Below are positions 23,677 through 58,945 of a DNA stretch of 64,000 nt, piece after piece (the first letter of the stretch is position 1; the number at the start of each line of letters is the position of its first letter). The translations under genes were made by a program, and so were the position numbers. The notes beneath the pieces were generated by a model. It did not search any database. It saw nothing but the letters and a program-made list of their open reading frames with translations, and had not been told where the DNA came from. This stretch comes from Terriglobia bacterium (lineage in GTDB: Bacteria > Acidobacteriota > UBA6911). The stretch lies in contig JAIQGI010000008.1 of assembly GCA_020072565.1 (NCBI GenBank), forward strand, positions 124,001 to 188,000, given 5' to 3'.

Positions 23677-23680
23677 CTGA

Positions 23681-23795
23681 CCTGAATTATTTATGAAGCA
23701 GAACCGCACGCCGACCAAGGCCGAACGGTCGGCGAGGGTCAGCGTTTTTCCGCGCCCAAAACCGCTTTTGGTCGCACATTTATGAATGATCCAGA
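23681..23795 (-). repeat. MITE-like structured repeat, copy A
   Basis: This is one of four related intergenic elements. Read on the minus strand it runs GGATCATTCATAAATGTGCG, a CCAAAA-TTTTGG hairpin, then an arm CGCTGACC ... GGTCGGCG enclosing GACCGTTCGGCC, and ends GTGCGGTTCTGCTTCATAAA. The two ends are inverted copies of ATTATTYRTGAA. It begins five bases after the gcvP stop codon and separates convergent gcvP and gcvH. Copy A has lost one base in the first hairpin relative to the others. Confidence 0.75.
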
Positions 23796-23825
23796 CTAAA
23801 GGAGTGCGAAAACGAGGAAATGGAT

Positions 23826-23862
23826 CCGCCGCCCCACCATGCGGGGCGGCGGCGCTGTTTTT
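23826..23862 (+). terminator. Intrinsic terminator of gcvP
   Basis: CCGCCGCCCC (23826-23835) and GGGGCGGCGG (23843-23852) form a perfect 10-pair stem with a 7-base loop, followed by GCTGTTTTTG. It lies downstream of repeat copy A. Confidence 0.75.
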
Positions 23863-23886
23863 GAACCTGTTCCGACCGCGGCCTGC

Positions 23887-24276
23887 TCAGCTGCCGGACA
23901 ACTCCTGGAGGTATTCTTCGTACTCCTCCGCGCTGAGCATCTCTTTGAGTTCTTCCGGATTGGAGATTCGGATCTTGATCATCCAGGCCTTTTGATGGGG
24001 CGACTCGTTGACAAGCTCCGGATTGTCTTCCAGTTTTGCATTGACCTCGAGAACCTCGCCGCTGACGGGACTGAACACCTCGGAGACCGCCTTGACCGAT
24101 TCGACGGAGCCAAAAGGTTCTGTAGCCTCAAAAGTGTCTCCCACCTCCGGCAGATCCACGTAGACCACGTCCCCCAATTCATGCTGGGCGTAGTCGGTTA
24201 TGCCTACGATTCCCACATCTCCCTGGACGTGAATCCACTCGTGATCTTTTGTATACAGGTTTTCCTCGGGGTACAT
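23887..24276 (-). CDS. gcvH: Glycine cleavage system H-protein
   Basis: GcvH (129 residues) is the lipoylated carrier that shuttles the aminomethyl group from GcvP to GcvT and is reoxidised by the L-protein. The lipoyl-lysine is K62 in GSVESVKAVSE; DHEWI, GITDYAQHELGDVVYVDLP and the SPVSGEVLEVN stretch are diagnostic. ATG 24276 is chosen because GGAGG lies 8 bases upstream; the in-frame ATG at 24306 has none. It converges on gcvP, and its leader contains a possible RNA structure (24326-24416). No lpd gene is in the window, so the L-protein must be encoded elsewhere. Confidence 0.97.
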   Translation of the reverse strand: MYPEENLYTKDHEWIHVQGDVGIVGITDYAQHELGDVVYVDLPEVGDTFEATEPFGSVESVKAVSEVFSPVSGEVLEVNAKLEDNPELVNESPHQKAWMIKIRISNPEELKEMLSAEEYEEYLQELSGS

Positions 24277-24325
24277 AGGGTAAACCTCCGCTGTGACTGA
24301 ATGCATGAGCCCTTGCAGGGCCGAC

Positions 24326-24416
24326 TCAGGACTTCGTTACTCTCCAGCAAAATGGCGTCGGAACACCCCGGGCCTCACCGGCTTTCCACGGATAATAACA
24401 CTGAACCCTGTCCTGA
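24326..24416 (-). promoter_or_regulatory. Possible structured leader RNA upstream of gcvH
   Basis: In the 470-base gap between divergent gcvH and the Omp85-like gene, TCAGGAC (24326-24332) and GTCCTGA (24410-24416) close a 7-pair stem. Read toward gcvH, the interior contains CGTGGAA ... TTCCGACG, with a nested CCGG-TGAGGC-CCGG hairpin, and then GGAGAG. It resembles no riboswitch class I can match securely. The rest of the gap (24417-24747) shows nothing definite beyond a small ACGGA-TTCG-TCCGT hairpin near 24642. Confidence 0.3.
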
Positions 24417-24747
24417 AGCTTACCTTTCCAAAGGAGCGAAAAAGTGCATGCGGAATCTAACACTCTTGTGGGGTGGAGTCAAGCTCAATGTATTCCATGA
24501 ACATACTGAAAACACAGGGTTTATAGTATAAAAATGTGACGGGCAGTCAGGAGTTGGGAGAAAAAGCAGCAGGCAAAGGTGACCACGCAACCTGCATCAG
24601 AGTGAGCCCGCGAGAGAGAGCTGCCTGCGGTTTCTTGCACGGATTCGTCCGTTATGGTTCGGGGCCGTTTTTTGGCAGATGGGAGACGGTGAAGATATAC
24701 TGGAACTGGCGCAGAGTGACGGAGTATAAGATATAGGTCAGGCAGTG

Positions 24748-27198
24748 ATGATTCGACGCTTTCTTTTCCTGAGTTGCCTGTTACTGGCGGCTCCTCATCT
24801 ATTTTCCCAGACTTCGCCCCGGTTGACAATCCGCAGCGTGCAAGTCCGCGGCAACGTCCGCATCCCTGCGGCCACGATTCTCCACTACGTCTCTGCTGCC
24901 CCCGACAAGTTGTACGACGAGGCCGGAACCCGCGCAGATATGCACTTTCTCTATGGCTTGGGAGTATTTCAATCGCTTGAGATCCAGACGCAGGAAGCTG
25001 GGGAAGGGGGAATCGACGTCATCTATCGGGTGCGCGAGCAGCCTTTTGTCTCAGAGTTTGTGATCGAAGGTGTGAGCGAGGGAGAACAGGAACAGATCCG
25101 GCGTTTGCTGGGCCAGCAGAAGCTCTTGATGCAGCCCGCAACGCCTTTTCGTCCCGGAGCGGCGAACAAGGCGGCGAATTTCGTGCGCAGCTACCTGCGG
25201 ATGCACAAGTATCCGTTTGCGCAGGTGCGCGTGCTTACGGAGGAGGAGAGAGAAGGCACCGCGCGGCTCAAGCTGAGCATCAATGCGGGCCCTAATCTGG
25301 ATGTCGGGGAAGTCCGCTTCAGTGGTAACCGATCCATCCCATCCGGCGATTTGCTGAAGCAGCTGCAGTACACGCGTCCCGCTCCATTTTTTGCGCCCTG
25401 GCTGCGGGGGGCGTATGTGGCCGAGGACGTCAACGCGGATCTGGACAGCCTCCGTCGCTATTACCAGTCGCAAGGTTTTGCCGCCGCAAGCATCGGCACG
25501 CCGGAGATGGTTGCCCGGGATTTCCCGCGGCGATATTTGGTGCCTCTGCCGAAAATAGGCGGATCGAAACAGAAACTGGCGCTTTTGATCCCGATTGTCG
25601 AGGGGCCGGGCTACCGGCTGGTGTCGGTCGGCAGCGACGGGAGCGCGAAATCTGCTGCTGCAAAGGTGGCTGAGATCCTCGCCGCCGTCAAGGTGCCCGG
25701 CCCCTATGACTCGTCGCTGCTCGAAGCGACGCGCCAGAAGATTGTGGATGCCCTGGGCCACGAAGGCTACGCGCTGGCACAGGTGATGCTCGAACAAAAC
25801 ATCGGCGACGCGGAGCTCACGGTCGGCGCCCTGTACCGGATCTATGCGGGAGATCCGATCGTGATCGGCAGAATCCAATTCAGCGGCAACACACGACTGC
25901 GGGAAAGATTTCTGCGCCGCGAAGTGGTGGTGCGCGAAGGGGAGATCTTCGATTCGGCAAAGCTGGATCAGAGCATCAAGCGTCTCAACCGGAGCGGGAT
26001 GATTCAGGAGGTCAGGCGCGCTGACGTAGCCCTGGATATGAACGAGAAAACCGACGAGCTGGACGTTACATTCAAGATCAAGGAGAAGGAGCGGCAGGGG
26101 ATTTACGGGACAGGCGGGACCGGCGGTATCGGGGGAGGGTATCTGGGAATACTATACAGCGCATTCGATCTGCTGGGGCTGGGCGAATCGCTTTCCCTGC
26201 AGCTGGACGGCGGCGCAGCGCAATCCAACATGGTGCTCGACATCATCGGCAGTCGTTTTCTCGGCCTTCCTTTTACCTTGGGTCTGTCGGTCTTCCATCG
26301 GCTGACCAATTTCAACGTGGCGAGTGTCGTGCCGAACGCTACGGATCTGATTCAGGTCCTCCGGCGTCGTTCCACCGGCATGGCCTTGTCCGGTGCCTAT
26401 CCGGTAACTTCAAAGGTTCAGGTCGGTCTGGGAGCGCAGTTCGAACGGCTTTCGCTGTCGCAAGACGCTTCAGCCGGTGCTGCTGCGCAAAACATTGTAC
26501 AGGGAAGAACGGAACTTTCGCCTACCTTTGTCTTCGACTCAACCAAGGGAACAGGGCCCGCGGCGCGCGGCACTCGATTCGCATTCACGAATTCCTGGGC
26601 GGGTACTACTCTGCTCCGGACGGTCGATTCGACCGCGCAGTCCTACCGTTTTTCCCAGTACGTGAACGATCCCATTACGCAGGGAAGGAATTCCTTTGCC
26701 TTCCGTTTCCAGGCCGCGATGACGCGTCCGCAAAACGGTGTGCCCCTGACGCTGGATCGGCGCTTCTATCCAGGCGATGAGATCGTGCGCGGGTTTGCGC
26801 GCGGCGCTATGACCGCCTGGGCTCTGCCAACCGGAACGGAGGTCTCCCCGAGCCCGGTGGGCGCCGATACCGTCCTGGGATTCTCCATGGAGTATCGCGT
26901 CCCGATTCAGGGGCCGCTGAGCGCCGCTGCCTTTGTGGACCTCGGGTGGAGCGGCCTGTCGAAGAGAAATGTGGATCCGGATACGAGTTCGAACCTGATT
27001 GACAAATCCAGCCGGGTCCTGCGCGCTTCGGTCGGCGGGGAGTTCCGCCTGCAGCTTCCGGTGATTCGTCAGCCTGCGCGCCTGATTTTTTCCTGGAATC
27101 CCCTGCGGCTCAACCAACTCATTCAGAACAAAGGCTCGCTGCTGCGCCTCGTGGACCCGCGCGGCTCGGTCCACTTTGCCCTCGGCGACCTGTTCTAG
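24748..27198 (+). CDS. Omp85/BamA-TamA family outer membrane protein
   Basis: This is an 816-residue outer-membrane beta-barrel protein with N-terminal POTRA repeats. The signal peptide is RRFLFLSCLLLAAPHLFSQ. POTRA-like modules follow (TIRSVQVRGNVRIPAATILHY; FVIEGVSEGEQEQI; VGEVRFSGNRSIPSGDLL; IGRIQFSGNTRLRERFLRRE). A Gly-rich turn (YGTGGTGGIGGGYLG) leads into the barrel, which has the conserved GTRF-like motif (PAARGTRFAF) and a typical final segment ending VHFALGDLF with the terminal aromatic residue. Such proteins insert or export outer-membrane proteins. Its length (4-5 POTRAs) fits BamA, but no bamA neighbours (skp, lpxD) are present, so I assign only the superfamily. GTG 24745 immediately precedes the ATG and could also start it. 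Confidence 0.85.
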   Translation: MIRRFLFLSCLLLAAPHLFSQTSPRLTIRSVQVRGNVRIPAATILHYVSAAPDKLYDEAGTRADMHFLYGLGVFQSLEIQTQEAGEGGIDVIYRVREQPFVSEFVIEGVSEGEQEQIRRLLGQQKLLMQPATPFRPGAANKAANFVRSYLRMHKYPFAQVRVLTEEEREGTARLKLSINAGPNLDVGEVRFSGNRSIPSGDLLKQLQYTRPAPFFAPWLRGAYVAEDVNADLDSLRRYYQSQGFAAASIGTPEMVARDFPRRYLVPLPKIGGSKQKLALLIPIVEGPGYRLVSVGSDGSAKSAAAKVAEILAAVKVPGPYDSSLLEATRQKIVDALGHEGYALAQVMLEQNIGDAELTVGALYRIYAGDPIVIGRIQFSGNTRLRERFLRREVVVREGEIFDSAKLDQSIKRLNRSGMIQEVRRADVALDMNEKTDELDVTFKIKEKERQGIYGTGGTGGIGGGYLGILYSAFDLLGLGESLSLQLDGGAAQSNMVLDIIGSRFLGLPFTLGLSVFHRLTNFNVASVVPNATDLIQVLRRRSTGMALSGAYPVTSKVQVGLGAQFERLSLSQDASAGAAAQNIVQGRTELSPTFVFDSTKGTGPAARGTRFAFTNSWAGTTLLRTVDSTAQSYRFSQYVNDPITQGRNSFAFRFQAAMTRPQNGVPLTLDRRFYPGDEIVRGFARGAMTAWALPTGTEVSPSPVGADTVLGFSMEYRVPIQGPLSAAAFVDLGWSGLSKRNVDPDTSSNLIDKSSRVLRASVGGEFRLQLPVIRQPARLIFSWNPLRLNQLIQNKGSLLRLVDPRGSVHFALGDLF

Positions 27199-27267
27199 CC
27201 GGCAAACCACAGACGCACGCTGACGGACGCAGATTCCAATCTGCCTTCTTCAGCGTGCTTTCTAGTC

Positions 27268-27466
27268 CGGAATATTTATGAATGTGCGACCAAAATGCAG
27301 TTTTGGACGCGGAAAAACACTGACCGGCGCCGACCGTTCGGTCTTCGTCGACGTGCAGGAGCTTTTTCCGGGCAAGCAGGACGGCAAATGCTCCTGCCTC
27401 CGTTTACCCGCGTCCAATTCTGCTGCTTTTCACGGGTGTGCGGTTCTGCTTCACGAATAAATCAGG
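27268..27466 (+). repeat. MITE-like structured repeat, copy B (longest)
   Basis: It begins CGGAATATTTATGAATGTGC, contains CCAAAA-TGCAG-TTTTGG and an arm CACTGACC ... CGTCGACG around GACCGTTCGGTC. About 80 further bases lead to an end (TGCGGTTCTGCTTCACGAAT) nearly identical to that of copy A. It fills the gap between the convergent Omp85-like gene and the gcvT-glyA fusion and abuts the latter's stop codon. A short hairpin GCAGATT-CC-AATCTGC (27229-27244) just before it may end the Omp85 transcript. Confidence 0.75.
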
Positions 27467-30127
27467 CTAGAAAGTCGCCAGCAGCTTGGTCCGTTGCTGC
27501 TCCATATCCTTTCCGTCGAAACAGTAGCGCATCTTCAGGAAGCCCTGCCGGAACCTGGCCACTTCCTCCGCTACGTTCTTGCCTCTGACGGCGTCTGCAA
27601 AGAGCGCTGCAAACGCGCGGAAATCTTTCTCCTTCATTCCGAATCGGGTCATCTCGGAAACTCCCAGACGAAGTCCGGAGCTGGCCGTGAAGCTTTCGTC
27701 ACTCGGAACAGCCTGGTAGTTTACGATGATGTTGTTGCGCTCGAGGTTCCGGGCTACATCGCACCCGTGAGCGTAGCCGACTTTGACGATGACCTGGTGG
27801 GTGTCGGTATAGCGGATGGCCGGATCGCCGGCCACATCGAGGCCCTGTTCCTTGAGGGCACACGCCAGAGCCTTGGCATTGGCGATCACCTGAGGCTGGT
27901 ACTCACTCTTGAACGCGTTCATTTCGATTGCCGCCATGAGGAGCCCCAGCAACGTGCCCAGATGATGATTGCTGGTCATGCCCGGGAACGCCCGCCGCCG
28001 GACCGCATTCCACAGCTCGAACTCCGGGGTGTTCTCCGAGACATTCATTCCGATCACCCCGCGCTGCGACCCGAAGAACGTCTTGTGGGTGGAGCCGGTT
28101 ACGACATCGGCGCCTTCCTTGAACGGTTCCTGGAAATGAGGCCCGATCAATCCAAGGACATGCGCCATGTCGTACATGACGATCGGCGGTTCTTTTCGGT
28201 CCTTGACCAGCTTCCTGATTTCAGCGACGGGTTCCTTATGGATTACCATGCTCTTGCCGAAGATGATGATTTCCGGGTTGACCTGGTCCAGGATCTTCGC
28301 CGTTTCGGCCACATCGATCTTGAAGGGATTGTCCGCGCACACGGGGAAGTTGATCACGGCGAAGCGCTCGGTGACCGGGTCCTTGGCAATGTAGTCGCGG
28401 AGCGCGCCCATCGGTTGAGCGCTCAAATGCCCGCCGTAGGTGATGTGATTGTTCATGGCGAGGCGAATGCGCCCCGGCTCGCGGCGGCGGTCGATCCGGT
28501 TTCTGTAATCCACCATGGCGCTGAACACGGTCATGTTAGCCATCTGGCCGCTGATGGCGCGGGCCTCCACCTGCGGGCAGCCCAAGAATTGCGCCATTTC
28601 GGCCATCAGCCGGTCTTCAACCCAGGCAATGAAATCTGTGCCCTGATAGTAGAAGACTTCCTGGTCAAGAAAAGCCGCGAATTCCCTGTGCTCGGCGTAG
28701 CGCCCTACCGGGTCCGACACCTGAAGCATGCGCACGAGCGGGGAGGGTGTCATCTCGGACGGAATCAGGTTGATGCAGCGGCGCTGGCGCCACTCGTGGT
28801 TCTCGAGCGCCTTTCGGAGCAGCCGCCGGGCCTTCTCGAGACCTTCGCCCACCGCCGGCGCGCGCTCCGGCTTGTGCCAGCTCGCCGGAATCGGGCGAAA
28901 GTACGGCGGTGCCTCCGACCTTCCGTGCCATTGGACGATGCGGGCCTTCATGCGGCGCCCGCGGACCAGCACTTCGACCTCCTGCTCGGGCATCAAGGTT
29001 GCGTCCATCAGAGCCATGGCCACCGCCCGCCGCTCCGTTTCGTCGGTGATCCTCATGGTGGAACCTTCGCCCTCGAATTTCCAGTAGGGGGCTACGGTGC
29101 CGCTGGTTATCATCCCCACTTTTTTGTCCCCCATGAACACCTGATCTCCCTGGCGCGCCACGCCTTTGTCCACGATGGCCACCGGCCGGATCCGGCGCGG
29201 AAGGACATCGGAGGATTCATAGATGCCCTCCATGAGCCTTTTCACTTCCTCGAACTGGCGCGCCAAAGCCTCGCGGCCGATGAAACTGCCTTTGCGGTCG
29301 GAAAAGCTGACGGCGATGCTGGTGAGCGGAAAAGCGAAAGCCGGTATTTCCTTGCCTTCCGTGTCGATGCCGAATTCATGGCCATAGAGCGGCAGTCCGC
29401 CTTCAAGGCGAAGCGTGTCCCTGCCGCCGAGCCCGATGGGGAGTACGCCCCGGTCCTTGCCTGCTGCACAGAGCTTTGACCAGATCTTCACGGCCTGATC
29501 CGCGGGCACGAACAGCTCGAGGCAAATGGGTTCTGCCGTGTAGCCCGTGCGCCCGATAAGAATTTCCGTGCCGGAGATCGCCGCCCGCGACAGTGCATTG
29601 CGGAACGGCTTCGGCAGCGAGCCTCCTTCGATCAGCTCCTCCAGGATCAGCCCTGCGAGTGGACCCTGGAAGGCAATCATCGCCAGTTTCTCGCTGTGGT
29701 TTTCCATCACCAGGCCGGGAAAGTTGCGGGCTTGTTCCTGAAAATGGTGCCAGTCTTTTTCCGCATTGGATGCATTTACCACGAGCAGGTAATCATCTTC
29801 ACCAAAACGGTAGAGATACGCGTCGTCGACCAGGCCTCCGTTCTCATTCGGGACCAGTGTGTACTGGGCCTGCCACGGCTCGAGCGCCTCCGCGTTGTTG
29901 GACAGGACGTGCTGCAGAAATGGGATCCGGTCTGCGCCTTTGAAACGGAACCGGCCCATATGGCTGACATCAAACAAGCCGCCGAACTTGCGCGTGGCCA
30001 TATGCTCCTGGATGATGCCGGTTTCGTATTGCACCGGCATGTCCCATCCGCCGAAATCCACCATTTTCGCCCCATGATCGCGGTGCCATTGGTTTAACGG
30101 GGTCTTGTTAAGATTACTCGCCGTCAC
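27467..30127 (-). CDS. Fused aminomethyltransferase (GcvT) - serine hydroxymethyltransferase (GlyA)
   Basis: One 886-residue chain joins two C1 enzymes. I choose GTG 30127, preceded by AGAGGAGA; earlier in-frame codons lack a site. Residues about 1-410 are GcvT: MVDFGGWDMPVQYETG, FDVSHMGRF, GGLVDDAYLYR (catalytic Asp), GRTGYTAEP, LGGRDTLRLEGGLPLYGHE, and the C-terminal barrel motif GMITSGTVAPYWK. After a charged linker (EGLEKARRLLRKALENHEW), residues about 450-886 are a divergent SHMT: NLIPSEMTPSPL, SGQMANMTVF, HITYGGHLS, the YDMAHVLGL pocket, PLP-lysine in TGSTHKTFFGSQRG, and GLRLGVSEMTRFGM. Both active sites look intact. GcvT makes methylene-tetrahydrofolate from GcvH; SHMT uses it to make serine from glycine. 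The fusion could channel methylene-THF (inference). The alternative of a sequencing artefact is unlikely because the linker is open and in frame. Confidence 0.93.
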   Translation of the reverse strand: MTASNLNKTPLNQWHRDHGAKMVDFGGWDMPVQYETGIIQEHMATRKFGGLFDVSHMGRFRFKGADRIPFLQHVLSNNAEALEPWQAQYTLVPNENGGLVDDAYLYRFGEDDYLLVVNASNAEKDWHHFQEQARNFPGLVMENHSEKLAMIAFQGPLAGLILEELIEGGSLPKPFRNALSRAAISGTEILIGRTGYTAEPICLELFVPADQAVKIWSKLCAAGKDRGVLPIGLGGRDTLRLEGGLPLYGHEFGIDTEGKEIPAFAFPLTSIAVSFSDRKGSFIGREALARQFEEVKRLMEGIYESSDVLPRRIRPVAIVDKGVARQGDQVFMGDKKVGMITSGTVAPYWKFEGEGSTMRITDETERRAVAMALMDATLMPEQEVEVLVRGRRMKARIVQWHGRSEAPPYFRPIPASWHKPERAPAVGEGLEKARRLLRKALENHEWRQRRCINLIPSEMTPSPLVRMLQVSDPVGRYAEHREFAAFLDQEVFYYQGTDFIAWVEDRLMAEMAQFLGCPQVEARAISGQMANMTVFSAMVDYRNRIDRRREPGRIRLAMNNHITYGGHLSAQPMGALRDYIAKDPVTERFAVINFPVCADNPFKIDVAETAKILDQVNPEIIIFGKSMVIHKEPVAEIRKLVKDRKEPPIVMYDMAHVLGLIGPHFQEPFKEGADVVTGSTHKTFFGSQRGVIGMNVSENTPEFELWNAVRRRAFPGMTSNHHLGTLLGLLMAAIEMNAFKSEYQPQVIANAKALACALKEQGLDVAGDPAIRYTDTHQVIVKVGYAHGCDVARNLERNNIIVNYQAVPSDESFTASSGLRLGVSEMTRFGMKEKDFRAFAALFADAVRGKNVAEEVARFRQGFLKMRYCFDGKDMEQQRTKLLATF

Positions 30128-30527
30128 GGTCTTGTCTCCTCTGCTTCGAAAAAGGTTTTTAGGATACCTGAATTCTACCAACAAGGCCGACTGCAGCCGA
30201 AGCCGTCGGCGGAAATAAACTTGTAATGATCATCCTGAAACCAGGTCAGCGCAATCAAAAAGAGCAGACGCAGGCCGGACCGCCTGGATCCCTGGCCGCT
30301 GCGGCGCGGCAAAAGCTCCTCCACGCCGACCAGGACCGATCGGTCGGCTTCGGTCGGCGTTTTCCTGCCTCCTAAACTGCACCTTGGCTGCACATTCACG
30401 AATAATCCGTGTCAGGGCCTTTTTTTTTCATGTCCGGTGGAGACTCCGAGACTTGAAAACCTCAAGAAAGTTGTTTGGAGAAGGCCGGGATTTGTGAGAA
30501 TGTCTTGCGTTCGGAAATGGAGGAGCT
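30128..30527. other. Intergenic region upstream of gcvT-glyA
   Basis: This 400-base gap separates divergent gcvT-glyA and the ANKH-like transporter. It holds repeat copy C (30301-30409) and a nine-T run at 30422-30430. An open minus-strand frame (30175-30399) runs through the repeat but resembles no protein. Promoters for both genes should lie here; none is obvious. Confidence 0.4.
30301..30409 (-). repeat. MITE-like structured repeat, copy C (diverged)
   Basis: Read on the minus strand it starts CGGATTATTCGTGAATGTGC and contains the arm CGCCGACC ... GGTCGGCG (eight perfect pairs) around the 12-base palindrome GACCGATCGGTC, ending GGAGCTTTTGCCGCGCCGC. It differs from copies B and D at many single bases but has no insertions or deletions, and several changes keep the stem paired. 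Confidence 0.7.
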
Positions 30528-31832
30528 GTGACCTTACCGGCGTCGGTATCAACGCAGCGGCAGATCTTCCTGTTCTGGGTCCCGCTCGCTGCCAGCTGGT
30601 TGCTGATGGGTGCGGAGGTGCCGGTGCTTCAGGCAGCGATCGCCCGCCTGCCGGACATGCAGACACAACTCGCTGCTTTCGGCATAGTCATGAGCCTGGA
30701 GATCGCGATCGAGAGCCCGGTTATCATGCTGCTTGCCACCAGCACCGCGCTCTCCACGAGTGCCCGCAATTATCTCACCCTCCGTCGCTTCATGATCTGG
30801 ATCAACGTACTCGCCACGGCGACTGCAGTACTGGTGGCCTTCACTCCGGTATTTGACTTGGTCGTGCGCTCGCTCATGGGCATCCCGCCGGACATCGCCG
30901 ACGCCGCACAGCCAGGCATGAGGATCATGACGCTCTGGACTGCGGCCATCGGCGTGCGCCGGTTCTACCAGGGCGTCATGATCCGCCACGGGCAAACCCG
31001 CTCGATCGGATATGGGACCGCCGCCCGTCTTGCAGGGTCGGCGGGGACGGGCATCCTGCTCGCGCTGGTCACTCATTTACCCGGCGCCTGCGTGGGCAGC
31101 ATCGCGCTCATGGCCGGCGTGTCGACGGAGGCCACGTTCGTTGCGTGCGTGGTGCGGCCGACTGTAAAACGGGTCCTGGCGGGCGGGCCGGAGCGGAGCA
31201 CCGATGTCTTCGGCATGTGGGATGTCCTGCGCTACCACGCGCCGCTGGCGGCGACATCCCTGCTGACCCTCCTTGCCCAGCCGCTGATTGGCGCCGGATT
31301 GGCGCGCATGCCGCACCCCGAGGAGAACCTTGCAGCCTGGCCCGTTGTGTGGGGAATTGTGTTTCTGTTCCGCAGCCCGACCTTCGCACTGCCGGAGGCG
31401 GTCATCGCCCTGGTTACCGAGCGCCGCCTCAAGGGGGCGGTGTGGACGTTCTGCCGCAGGATCGGCATCGCATGCTCGGCAGCCATGCTGCTGGTAGTGG
31501 CAACACCGCTGTCGAGGATCTACATCTACTACGTTGCCGGCCTCCCGGCGAACCTGTCACGCTTTGTGATTCCCGCCATCGTGCTTGCCTTGGCGCTCCC
31601 CTTCATCAATTCGATCCACAGCTGGCTGCGCGGTCTGCTCATGGCGGCCCACTCCACCAAAACGATCTATTGGGGAATGGGGCTCAATCTGGGAGTGACG
31701 GCAATTATCGTGGCGGCAGCGGCTCTCATGCACGCCCCCGGCGCGGAGACGGCAGTCATCGCGCTGACTGCAGCCTTCATTGCAGAAATCCTTTACCTGC
31801 GCAAGGCCGGCCGCTCGGTCCTCACCGTCTAG
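30528..31832 (+). CDS. ANKH-like (progressive ankylosis) MOP-superfamily transporter
   Basis: This 434-residue protein has about 12 hydrophobic segments. Its pattern matches bacterial homologues of ANKH, a branch of the MOP/MATE exporter superfamily: FWVPLAASWLLMGAEVPVLQ, AFGIVMSLEIAIESPVIMLL, TALSTSARNYLTLRRFMIWI, and the diagnostic AAIGVRRFYQGVMIRHGQT. Human ANKH moves ATP/citrate/pyrophosphate-related solutes out of cells; the bacterial substrate is unknown. GTG 30528 is preceded by GGAGGAG. The gene is divergent from gcvT-glyA and convergent with the amidohydrolase; repeat copy D starts two bases after its stop. A lipid-flippase or MATE drug-efflux role is the main alternative. Confidence 0.75.
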   Translation: MTLPASVSTQRQIFLFWVPLAASWLLMGAEVPVLQAAIARLPDMQTQLAAFGIVMSLEIAIESPVIMLLATSTALSTSARNYLTLRRFMIWINVLATATAVLVAFTPVFDLVVRSLMGIPPDIADAAQPGMRIMTLWTAAIGVRRFYQGVMIRHGQTRSIGYGTAARLAGSAGTGILLALVTHLPGACVGSIALMAGVSTEATFVACVVRPTVKRVLAGGPERSTDVFGMWDVLRYHAPLAATSLLTLLAQPLIGAGLARMPHPEENLAAWPVVWGIVFLFRSPTFALPEAVIALVTERRLKGAVWTFCRRIGIACSAAMLLVVATPLSRIYIYYVAGLPANLSRFVIPAIVLALALPFINSIHSWLRGLLMAAHSTKTIYWGMGLNLGVTAIIVAAAALMHAPGAETAVIALTAAFIAEILYLRKAGRSVLTV

Positions 31833-31833
31833 C

Positions 31834-31942
31834 GCGGATTATTCGTGAATGTGCGACCAAAATGCAGTTTTGGACGCGGGAAAACGCTGACCGGCGCTGA
31901 CCGTTCGGTCTTGGTCGGCGTGCAGGAGCTTTGGCCGCGCCG
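31834..31942 (+). repeat. MITE-like structured repeat, copy D
   Basis: It starts CGGATTATTCGTGAATGTGC, with hairpin CCAAAA-TGCAG-TTTTGG and arm CGCTGACC ... GGTCGGCG around GACCGTTCGGTC. The similarity ends at CCGCGCCGC exactly where the stop codon of the convergent amidohydrolase (31943-31945) begins. The whole 110-base intergenic space is this element. The distal inverted end found in copies A and B is missing. Confidence 0.75.
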
Positions 31943-33146
31943 CTATTTAAGACGCGTGTTTTTGTAGATCCTGCCGCCTTTCATCACGAATGCGACCCGG
32001 CGCAGCGCGGTGATGTCCTGAAGCGGATTCCCTTCGACGGCGACGATATCAGCCTCCATGTTCGGCGCGATCGTGCCGATCTTTCAGCGATTGGGCCGCC
32101 AGCGAGGTCATGGCGATGATCGCTGCCATCGGATCCTGGCCTCCCTTCTGGACCCGGTAGATCAGCTCCTCCACATTGCGGCCGTGCGCGCCGGCCACAG
32201 CATCGGTCCCGAAAACGATTTTGAGACCCTTGATGGCCAACGCTTTCTTGAACATGGCGAGGTCGACCGGAATGGCTTTCTCCATCGCTGCGAAGCCCTC
32301 ATCGTTGTAGTTGCCGATACCCTGGTAGTGGGATCTGTTCTCCAGGTAGTTCTGCTTGACCAGGCCGATGTTCGGGTCGAAATAGGTGCCATGTTCCGCC
32401 ATCAGCCTGAGCATCTCCTCGCTGACGAGCGTGCCGTGTTCGATGCTGGTGCATCCCGCCAGGACGGAGGCCTTGATGGCATCGTCGCCATACGCGTGCA
32501 CCAACGTGCGCAGACCCCGCCTGGTGGCCTCTCCGCAGGCTGCCTGGATCTGCTCGGCGCTCAGGGTCTGGCCACCGCCGTCACGGATGCTCCTGGAGGC
32601 GAAGATCTTGATCAGGTCGGCTCCATTGGCCGCGGTCTTCTTGACATATTCCCGGATCTGGTCCGGAGTCATATTGGGACTGGTCAATGCTGCCAGGGAG
32701 GTCAACACCCTCGGCCCGGGCAGGACACCGCGCGCAATGACGTCGCGCAGGTCCTTGTCGATATTTGCGCCCACGCATTGCACGGTAGTGAAGCCGGCCA
32801 TCAGGGTAGCGTATGCGTTCTCCGCTTCGCAGGCCATTGTCAGCGAAGCCGAATCCCTCGTTGCATACCGCCCGTCGAGGCCGAAATGCCAGTCGAGGTG
32901 AACGTGGGTGTCGATCCAGCCGGGGAGCACGGTCAAGCCCCGCAGGTCGTAGATGGTGGAGCCTGCGGGCGCACCCGGCCCGACTTTGACAATGCGCGCG
33001 CCTTCGATTTGAATGCCGGTGTTACGAACCACGCCGCCTTTGCCATCCAGCATGGTATCGGCCTGAATCACGACCGGCTTGTCCTGAGCTGCATACAGGG
33101 AAGCTGCCATGACAAGGCTGCAGAGAGGCCACGATGCGAATCTCAT
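31943..33146 (-). pseudogene. Exported metal-dependent amidohydrolase, frameshifted near the C-terminus
   Basis: This encodes a secreted imidazolonepropionase/prolidase-like amidohydrolase. After the signal peptide (LCSLVMAASLYAAQ) come VIQADTMLDGKGG and the first metal motif PGWIDTHVHLDWHFG. Later metal and substrate regions are LVHAYGDDAIKASVLAGCTS, IEHGTL and VFGTDAVAGAHGRN. The continuous frame ends early at 32049. A different frame just beyond reads exactly the expected family ending (KIGTIAPNMEADIVAVEG, then NPLQDITALRRVAFVMKGG and RIYKNTRLK) to a stop at 31943. A net one-base shift lies near 32079-32085. It may be a real mutation or an assembly error; with the shift corrected the protein is about 400 residues, normal for the family. 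It follows the aldo/keto reductase gene by 14 bases, suggesting an operon. Confidence 0.85.
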
Positions 33147-58824: not shown

Positions 58825-58930
58825 GGTCCGAAGGACCGGCACATATGTCTTGTGCCACACCTTCGGCGCTCATTCCGATTGCCTTAAACCCCGGCCTCAC
58901 GGCCGGGGCTATGGTCTGCCGCCTCTTCGA
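58825..58930. repeat. Multi-palindrome intergenic element
   Basis: Four hairpins occur in a row: GGTCC-GAA-GGACC (58825-58837), GGCACA ... TGTGCC (58838-58856), CCCCGGCC-TCAC-GGCCGGGG (58889-58908) and GCCTC-TTC-GAGG (58921-58932). The style is that of dispersed palindromic repeats seen in acidobacterial and planctomycete genomes. Only one copy is in this window. Confidence 0.6.
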
Positions 58931-58945
58931 GGTCCCTCTTCTCCG

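Follow-up and report, generated by a model that had tools for sequence, protein, structure and literature searches.

Short inverted-repeat elements with YTAR target sites in a Terriglobia genome and their probable mobilisation by IS1380-family transposases

Four related repeats stand within 8.3 kb of one another around the glycine-cleavage genes of a Terriglobia bacterium (GCA_020072565.1, contig JAIQGI010000008.1), raising the question of whether they are mobile DNA or structured RNA elements acting at the ends of genes. An earlier note on this DNA had considered both. The window, that is, the whole stretch of 64,000 nucleotides that was analysed, is C8:124001-188000 of the 7.46-Mb, 135-contig host genome, and all four repeats described in that note (here copies A to D) were recovered. 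With a probability of roughly four in five, they are classical miniature inverted-repeat transposable elements (MITEs) that target YTAR tetramers (CTAG, TTAA, CTAA, or TTAG), were most likely mobilised in trans by a transposase of the IS1380 family, and descend from a founding nested palindrome of about 320 bp. The family is most likely new and its kind ordinary: because its ends and target sites match those of the IS1380 transposon family, we regard it as a known sort of mobile DNA and not as a conserved RNA.

Copy number, ends, and target sites of the repeat family

A profile built from genome copies matches exactly four places in the window (Table 1). The earlier statement that the repeat occurs nowhere else is thus correct for the window, but many more copies exist genome-wide. 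In the whole-genome search that the earlier note had proposed, the end motif GRATTATTCRTGAA, at two or fewer mismatches, was found 345 times (170 + 175), compared to 18 times (9 + 9) for reversed controls. A BLAST search of the host genome with copy B returned at least 46 match rows (40 of 133 candidates scored), some of which are second pieces of one element. Merged profile matches amount to 58 elements in 1.25 Mb, which comprises the fetched contig stretches and the window and is a non-random sample, every fetched contig having had earlier matches. The three largest fetched contigs (C3, C7, and C20; 813 kb) hold 20 elements, which scales to about 183 genome-wide, perhaps too high a value because all fetched contigs had shown matches before. 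Halving the 345 ends gives about 170, and the expected genome total is roughly 170-180 copies. Regional clusters occur: C7:183480-194755 (11 kb) has five elements, C48 has eleven in 79 kb, and C88 has five in 15 kb. The window's four copies are a cluster of the same kind.

The family has a terminal inverted repeat of about 17 bp, CCNGRATTATTCRTGAA. In an alignment of 21 long copies, end 1 reads CCCGGATTATTCATGAATGTGCGACCAAAATGCAGTTTTGGACGCGG, and end 2, read inward, is CCTGAATTATTCATGAAGCAGAACCGCACGCCCGTGAAAAGCAACAAAATTGGACGCGG. The 1.25 Mb contain 38 pairs of facing ends (60-600 bp apart), which define complete copies of either 110-213 or 319-321 bp. Elements of 110-321 bp are too short to encode a transposase, and their size and copy number are those of MITEs. 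Two ends face each other in copies A and B, in agreement with the inverted distal end that had been noticed in both; copies C and D are one-ended.

In its longest form (319-321 bp), the element is a nested palindrome. Its central palindrome, GCTTGCCCGGAACGGGCTGTCGA with its complement, is clear in three of the four copies of this length and diverged in the fourth, and is wholly or partly missing from the short forms. The shorter forms (110-213 bp) are deletions across the centre of the longest one: 30 shorter copies aligned to two 321-bp copies revealed 32 central deletions, mostly centred mid-element (28 of the 32 between positions 146 and 200 of 321). This analysis excluded 8 of the 38 complete copies, namely the four long ones and four whose ends could not be oriented by the rule used. 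Direct repeats flanking the deletions average 2.8 bp, compared to 0.77 bp for random breakpoints, a mean that may be inflated by the aligner's placement of gaps; six of the 32 deletions have none. The 1.25 Mb also contain two 26-bp end-to-end palindromes (C20:41875-41900 and C7:242866-242891). Similar palindromes, with two ends fused into about 26 bp, were seen in G013, a genome of the same family (L191:473 and L193:111), and some such palindromes have YTAR flanks. These fused-end palindromes may be end-points of internal deletion or leftovers of excision.

The tetramers flanking the 38 complete copies read YTAR on both sides and are a decayed 4-bp target duplication. Left and right flanks agree at the first base in 28 copies (18.0 in shuffles; P = 5e-4) and at the fourth base in 29 copies (16.7 in shuffles, with 0 of 10000 shuffles reaching the observed count). 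The two middle bases, which agree in 24/38 and 22/38 copies, do so no better than in shuffles and are uninformative because they are mostly T and A. The whole tetramer is identical in six copies, compared to 2.6 expected (P = 0.036). Among the ten elements of G013 for which both flanks were read, the tetramers match exactly in four (CTAG in L184; TTAA in L185, L187, and L190), differ by one base in four (L182, L183, L186, and L188), and differ by more in two (L181 and L195).

At one site, the element is absent from two relatives. The copy at C88:9651-9851 lies between two genes of the same direction, on the stop codon of the first. Six genomes were searched with the joined flanks of this site and of C25:39355-39553. 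Three of them had a match of any kind, and a joined site was crossed in G004 and G002 alone, which align straight across the C88 site without the element; there was no match at that site in G001, G013, G003, or G019. The element at C25:39355-39553 lies between two convergent genes, one ending in its left CTAG and the other in its right TCAG. In G001, the alignment is limited to the right flank: the gene there ends at TTAG, the tetramer at which the alignment starts, and the element is missing. For copies A to D, the relatives are too diverged or rearranged to offer a clean empty site; the GcvP-GcvH spacer of G004 has no copy A, but is too diverged to provide an exact empty site. Multi-copy spread, terminal inverted repeats, the 4-bp target duplication, the copy absent from relatives, and the existence of an insertion sequence (IS) family with the same ends bear out the non-autonomous MITE that the earlier note had put forward as one possibility.

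IS1380-family transposases as the candidate partner

The end pattern of the MITEs is carried by IS1380 elements in four records (G095, G013, and two plasmids). In G095, a genome of the same phylum, the facing ends CCCGAATATTTCATGAA and CCCGGATATTTCATGAA lie 1.6 kb apart with flanks CTAA and TTAA, and the 446-amino-acid transposase of this element belongs to IS1380 by NF033539 (428 bits). Two similar G095 copies have flanks TTAG/TTAG and ATAA/ATAA, the IS1380 class being assigned for the first copy alone. G013 holds an intact IS1380 element (343 bits) with ATTATTCACGAA at both ends, the outermost bases of which differ. Plasmid elements annotated as IS1380 have the ends CTAGCCCATCTTATTCGCGA (Methylocystis) and CTAGCCCGTCTTATGCACGA (Mesorhizobium), with CTAG at the far side too in both.

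The host genome has IS1380 fragments on C39, C51, and C7 and an intact IS1380 element (513 amino acids) on C44. About 40 bp beyond the C39 fragment lies TTAGCCCGATTAATTCATGAATGGGC, and the matching end beyond this fragment is given as TTAGCCCGATTAATTCATGAATG. The chance of an end motif lying less than 100 bp from a given point is estimated at under 1 per cent (84 motifs, at two or fewer mismatches, in 1.25 Mb). The MITE profile matches the C39 end with E = 0.012 over 42 positions, the CCAAAA...TTTT part included, and one end of the G095 IS with E = 0.0026.

Several observations weigh against this partnership. Where the profile matches IS1380 ends, it does so over short lengths and with modest E-values. 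The host yielded no intact IS1380 element with matching ends, and the intact one on C44 has no such end within 1.5 kb on each side. Scans of Acetobacter IS1380A and of the G014 element found no such ends either, the G014 contig being short on one side. G001, G007, and G012 have 29, 88, and 66 end motifs, respectively (two control matches each), and no NF033539 match; the partner in these genomes is therefore lost, unassembled, or different. Among the MITEs themselves, only 6 of 38 have identical flanking tetramers, and in two of the window copies, C and D, a second end is missing. The matching transposase that the earlier note had called for is accordingly found elsewhere, in IS1380 elements with the same end pattern, but not intact with matching ends in the host.

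An autonomous copy of IS length was not seen in the host: all facing pairs less than 5 kb apart in the 1.25 Mb measure at most 321 bp, and none was present among the genome end-motif matches listed (part of the 345). Separately, a 1.8-kb end pair in G013 (L179) was considered as an IS and rejected; its ends flank a 490-amino-acid open reading frame (ORF), which from its sequence we take to be tryptophan-synthase-like.

The IS5 and IS701 groups also prefer YTAR targets. Target preference by itself cannot tell these families from IS1380, and some end-rich relatives have no IS1380 match, as would be the case if another YTAR-inserting family moved the MITE. We nevertheless consider such a partner unlikely, since the IS1380 elements of four records carry this very end pattern, whereas the host loci matching PF13546 (DDE_5, one match) and PF01609 (DDE_Tnp_1, seven matches including the C44 IS1380) show no end at three or fewer mismatches in 17, in a search restricted to these two of the host's transposase families; three of the eight loci show just a four-mismatch site.

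Under mobilisation by IS1380, a transposase of this family acting in trans would recognise the approximately 17-bp ends and cut the element out, and insertion at a YTAR tetramer would duplicate that tetramer. Because YTAR holds TAG or TAA, an insertion on a stop codon would leave the gene a stop. Insertions at gene ends and between genes would survive, and those within genes would not. From a putative founding form, the nested palindrome of about 320 bp, slippage between short direct repeats would remove the centre to yield the 110-213-bp forms and, at the extreme, the 26-bp end-to-end palindromes. The elements are probably now largely immobile in the host.

Positions at gene ends and the question of RNA structure

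The repeats had first drawn attention by filling convergent gene gaps and abutting stop codons. With genes called by a simple ORF caller written for the analysis, 55 of the 58 elements in the 1.25 Mb do not lie mainly inside a called ORF, and the three mostly intragenic ones include two weak matches (40 and 46 bits) and one (91 bits) near a contig end. Copies A, B, and D do occupy convergent gaps, but this is not a rule of the family: of the 53 elements with two called neighbours, tandem gaps hold 33, convergent gaps 12, and divergent gaps 8. Convergent gaps make up 12.7 per cent of intergenic bases (P = 0.03 for the excess) or 14.7 per cent of gene pairs (P = 0.08), and divergent gaps are under-represented (P = 0.02 by intergenic bases).

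Abutment on a stop codon holds for copy B (the stop of the gene encoding GcvT fused to serine hydroxymethyltransferase [SHMT]) and copy D (the stop of the preceding gene), but not for copy A, which lies four bases after the GcvP stop. A called stop lies inside a flanking tetramer in 9 of 38 complete copies, and a preference for stops beyond the target itself is unsupported, given that 182 of 1107 YTAR sites at stops or in intergenic DNA (16.4 per cent) are at stops (P = 0.16). The abutment arises largely because the YTAR target contains TAG or TAA. Target choice and the loss of harmful insertions are enough to explain the positions, and a role at 3' ends, though conceivable, is not needed to account for those at gene ends.

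A bolder variant would make the family a bacterial counterpart of piggyBac MITEs that exploit stop codons. YTAR being a stop codon on either strand, an element would enter the 4-bp overlap of two convergent genes, the duplication would return to each gene its own stop, and the palindromic body might act as a two-way terminator for the pair. One of the 38 complete copies (C25:39355-39553) has the ends of both neighbouring genes in the duplicated tetramer, and we find the proposal doubtful.

A family of conserved structured RNAs or bidirectional terminators, kept at gene ends by selection on its fold, would fit both the convergent excess with few divergent insertions and the strong fold predicted for a 321-bp copy with its flanks (z = -11.1 relative to shuffles). 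Such a fold, however, results from nested inverted repeats. Covariation was scored on the RNAalifold structure, which has 49 pairs. Both sides change in two of these pairs, compared to 1.6 in shuffles and 2 to 5 in slid controls, and the covariation score (0.099) is below the shuffle mean (0.102). The share of paired cells (94.0 per cent, versus 94.1 per cent in shuffles and 29-42 per cent in slid versions) is high without differing from shuffles because inverted repeats give such a share. The covariance analysis proposed in the earlier note therefore reveals no excess, and the stem changes read there as compensatory, T-G to C-G, represent one-sided drift. No Rfam family matches any copy in the stretches scanned, most elements are in tandem gaps, their sizes range from 110 to 321 bp, and some are one-ended. 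With covariation counts at shuffle level and no Rfam match, we rejected the structured-RNA explanation as quite improbable, and the selection on RNA or cruciform structure suggested earlier is likewise unsupported.

A palindromic repeat of the repetitive extragenic palindrome (REP) type, associated with REP-associated tyrosine transposases (RAYTs) and spread without cut-and-paste transposition, would likewise be numerous, intergenic, and palindromic, but is highly improbable in view of the two inverted ends with a 4-bp target duplication, the identical duplications around young copies (four of ten G013 elements, L184, L185, L187, and L190), and the presence in the genome of a separate short palindromic repeat with RF01687 matches. 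This second repeat was detected at L050:5909-5955, L050:16015-16060, L051:10631-10679, L051:16028-16076, and L051:18554-18600, which match Rfam Acido-Lenti-1 (RF01687) at or above the gathering score. A profile of these five places with 60-base flanks gave over twenty rows in the 1.25 Mb, including one at 58846-58932 of the window, and the repeat looks like a short multi-copy palindromic repeat of the host genome.

Copies in the window, relatives, and related systems

The anatomy of the window copies is given in Table 1. The right CTAG of copy B carries the TAG stop of the minus-strand GcvT-SHMT gene, and copy D finishes beside a minus-strand stop at 31943-31945. Among six ORFs around the window copies, no transposase was identified by Pfam.

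Table 1. Repeat copies and terminal inverted repeats in the window (window coordinates).
Feature	Position	Strand	Profile match	Description
Copy A	23677-23799	-	23677-23799	Both ends; 115-bp body 23681-23795; central deletion form; flanking tetramers CTGA / CTAA
Copy B	27262-27470	+	27263-27470	Two-ended; 201-bp body 27266-27466; CTAG on either side
Copy C	30266-30414	-	30266-30414	One-ended, first end only; between divergent gcvT-SHMT and a 434-amino-acid ORF
Copy D	31829-31942	+	31830-31982	One-ended; begins at CTAG, the TAG of which ends ORF 30528-31832
Terminal inverted repeat, end 1 of copy B	27266-27282	+		TCCGGAATATTTATGAA
Terminal inverted repeat, end 2 of copy B	27450-27466	-		CCTGATTTATTCGTGAA

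Two neighbouring genes deserve mention. The amidohydrolase gene that follows copy D (31943-32213) is apparently frameshifted: its long ORF stops at 32049, and a C-terminal-like end lies in another frame, with the stop at 31943-31945 that adjoins copy D. On the minus strand at 27467-30184, a single 905-amino-acid ORF fuses aminomethyltransferase (GcvT) and SHMT. In a search with this fusion, the matches came from many phyla; 34 of 79 loci matched across both halves, many of them titled Desulfo- or Deltaproteobacteria, and G001, a genome of the same genus, has a separate 367-amino-acid ORF with a GcvT-like match beside gcvH.

The body of the MITE has a narrow range. Copy B matched 2 of the 60 genomes searched, its own host and, with a single weak match, G001, and a consensus search of 38 genomes of the class found three (the host, G001, and G002). 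The profile recovered full-length diverged copies in G001 and G002 (L196, L153, and L154). An exact 23-mer of the MITE had no matches in named-genome contigs, a set from which the host's own genome was possibly left out. The end motif has a much wider range (102 in G013, 88 in G007, 66 in G012, and 48 in G063, versus 0-2 control matches each); therefore, different bodies seem to share ends of one kind, the bodies having been read in G013 alone. There, L184, L185, L187, and L190 belong to a separate, apparently younger MITE family of about 170 bp whose ends are likewise of this kind. In G013, eight pairs of ends are spaced exactly 153 bases apart, and a dozen or so ends lie within 200 bases of a contig start, so that these MITEs probably break the assembly.

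Of known systems, the IS1380 ISs (NF033539) on plasmids of Methylocystis sp. MJC1 and Mesorhizobium loti are alike in having CCC....TTAT.CRCGA ends with CTAG on both sides. They differ in that the MITEs lack a transposase, and the MITE profile matches the IS ends alone (E below 0.1) and not the bodies. In PMC10813416, IS1380 is placed as the outgroup to piggyBac, which duplicates TTAA or its variants TTAG and CTAA and has end motifs of the CCC type; by that description, eukaryotic piggyBac resembles the MITEs in its 4-bp TTAA-type duplication and CCC-type ends. MITEPye1 of Paracoccus yeei, as portrayed in PMC11578231, is similarly short and non-coding, has terminal and direct repeats, is mainly intergenic, and folds as RNA, but differs in having ends that match IS1182 and 1-3 copies per chromosome, as against the total estimated for the host. 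The MITEs of Anabaena sp. 90 (147 complete or partial copies of 77-541 bp, 132 of them intergenic) are comparable, but their ends have no evident similarity to that genome's ISs, according to PMC3542288. The portions consulted of PMC11578231, PMC4133298, PMC3542288, and PMC9330008 tie no MITE to IS1380.

The present analysis names IS1380 as a concrete candidate partner for a bacterial MITE family of high copy number. The family shows how a target that contains a stop codon places elements at gene ends, making them look like terminators, and the deletions that lead from its nested palindrome of 320 bp down to end-to-end remnants of 26 bp document the natural decay of a palindromic transposon.

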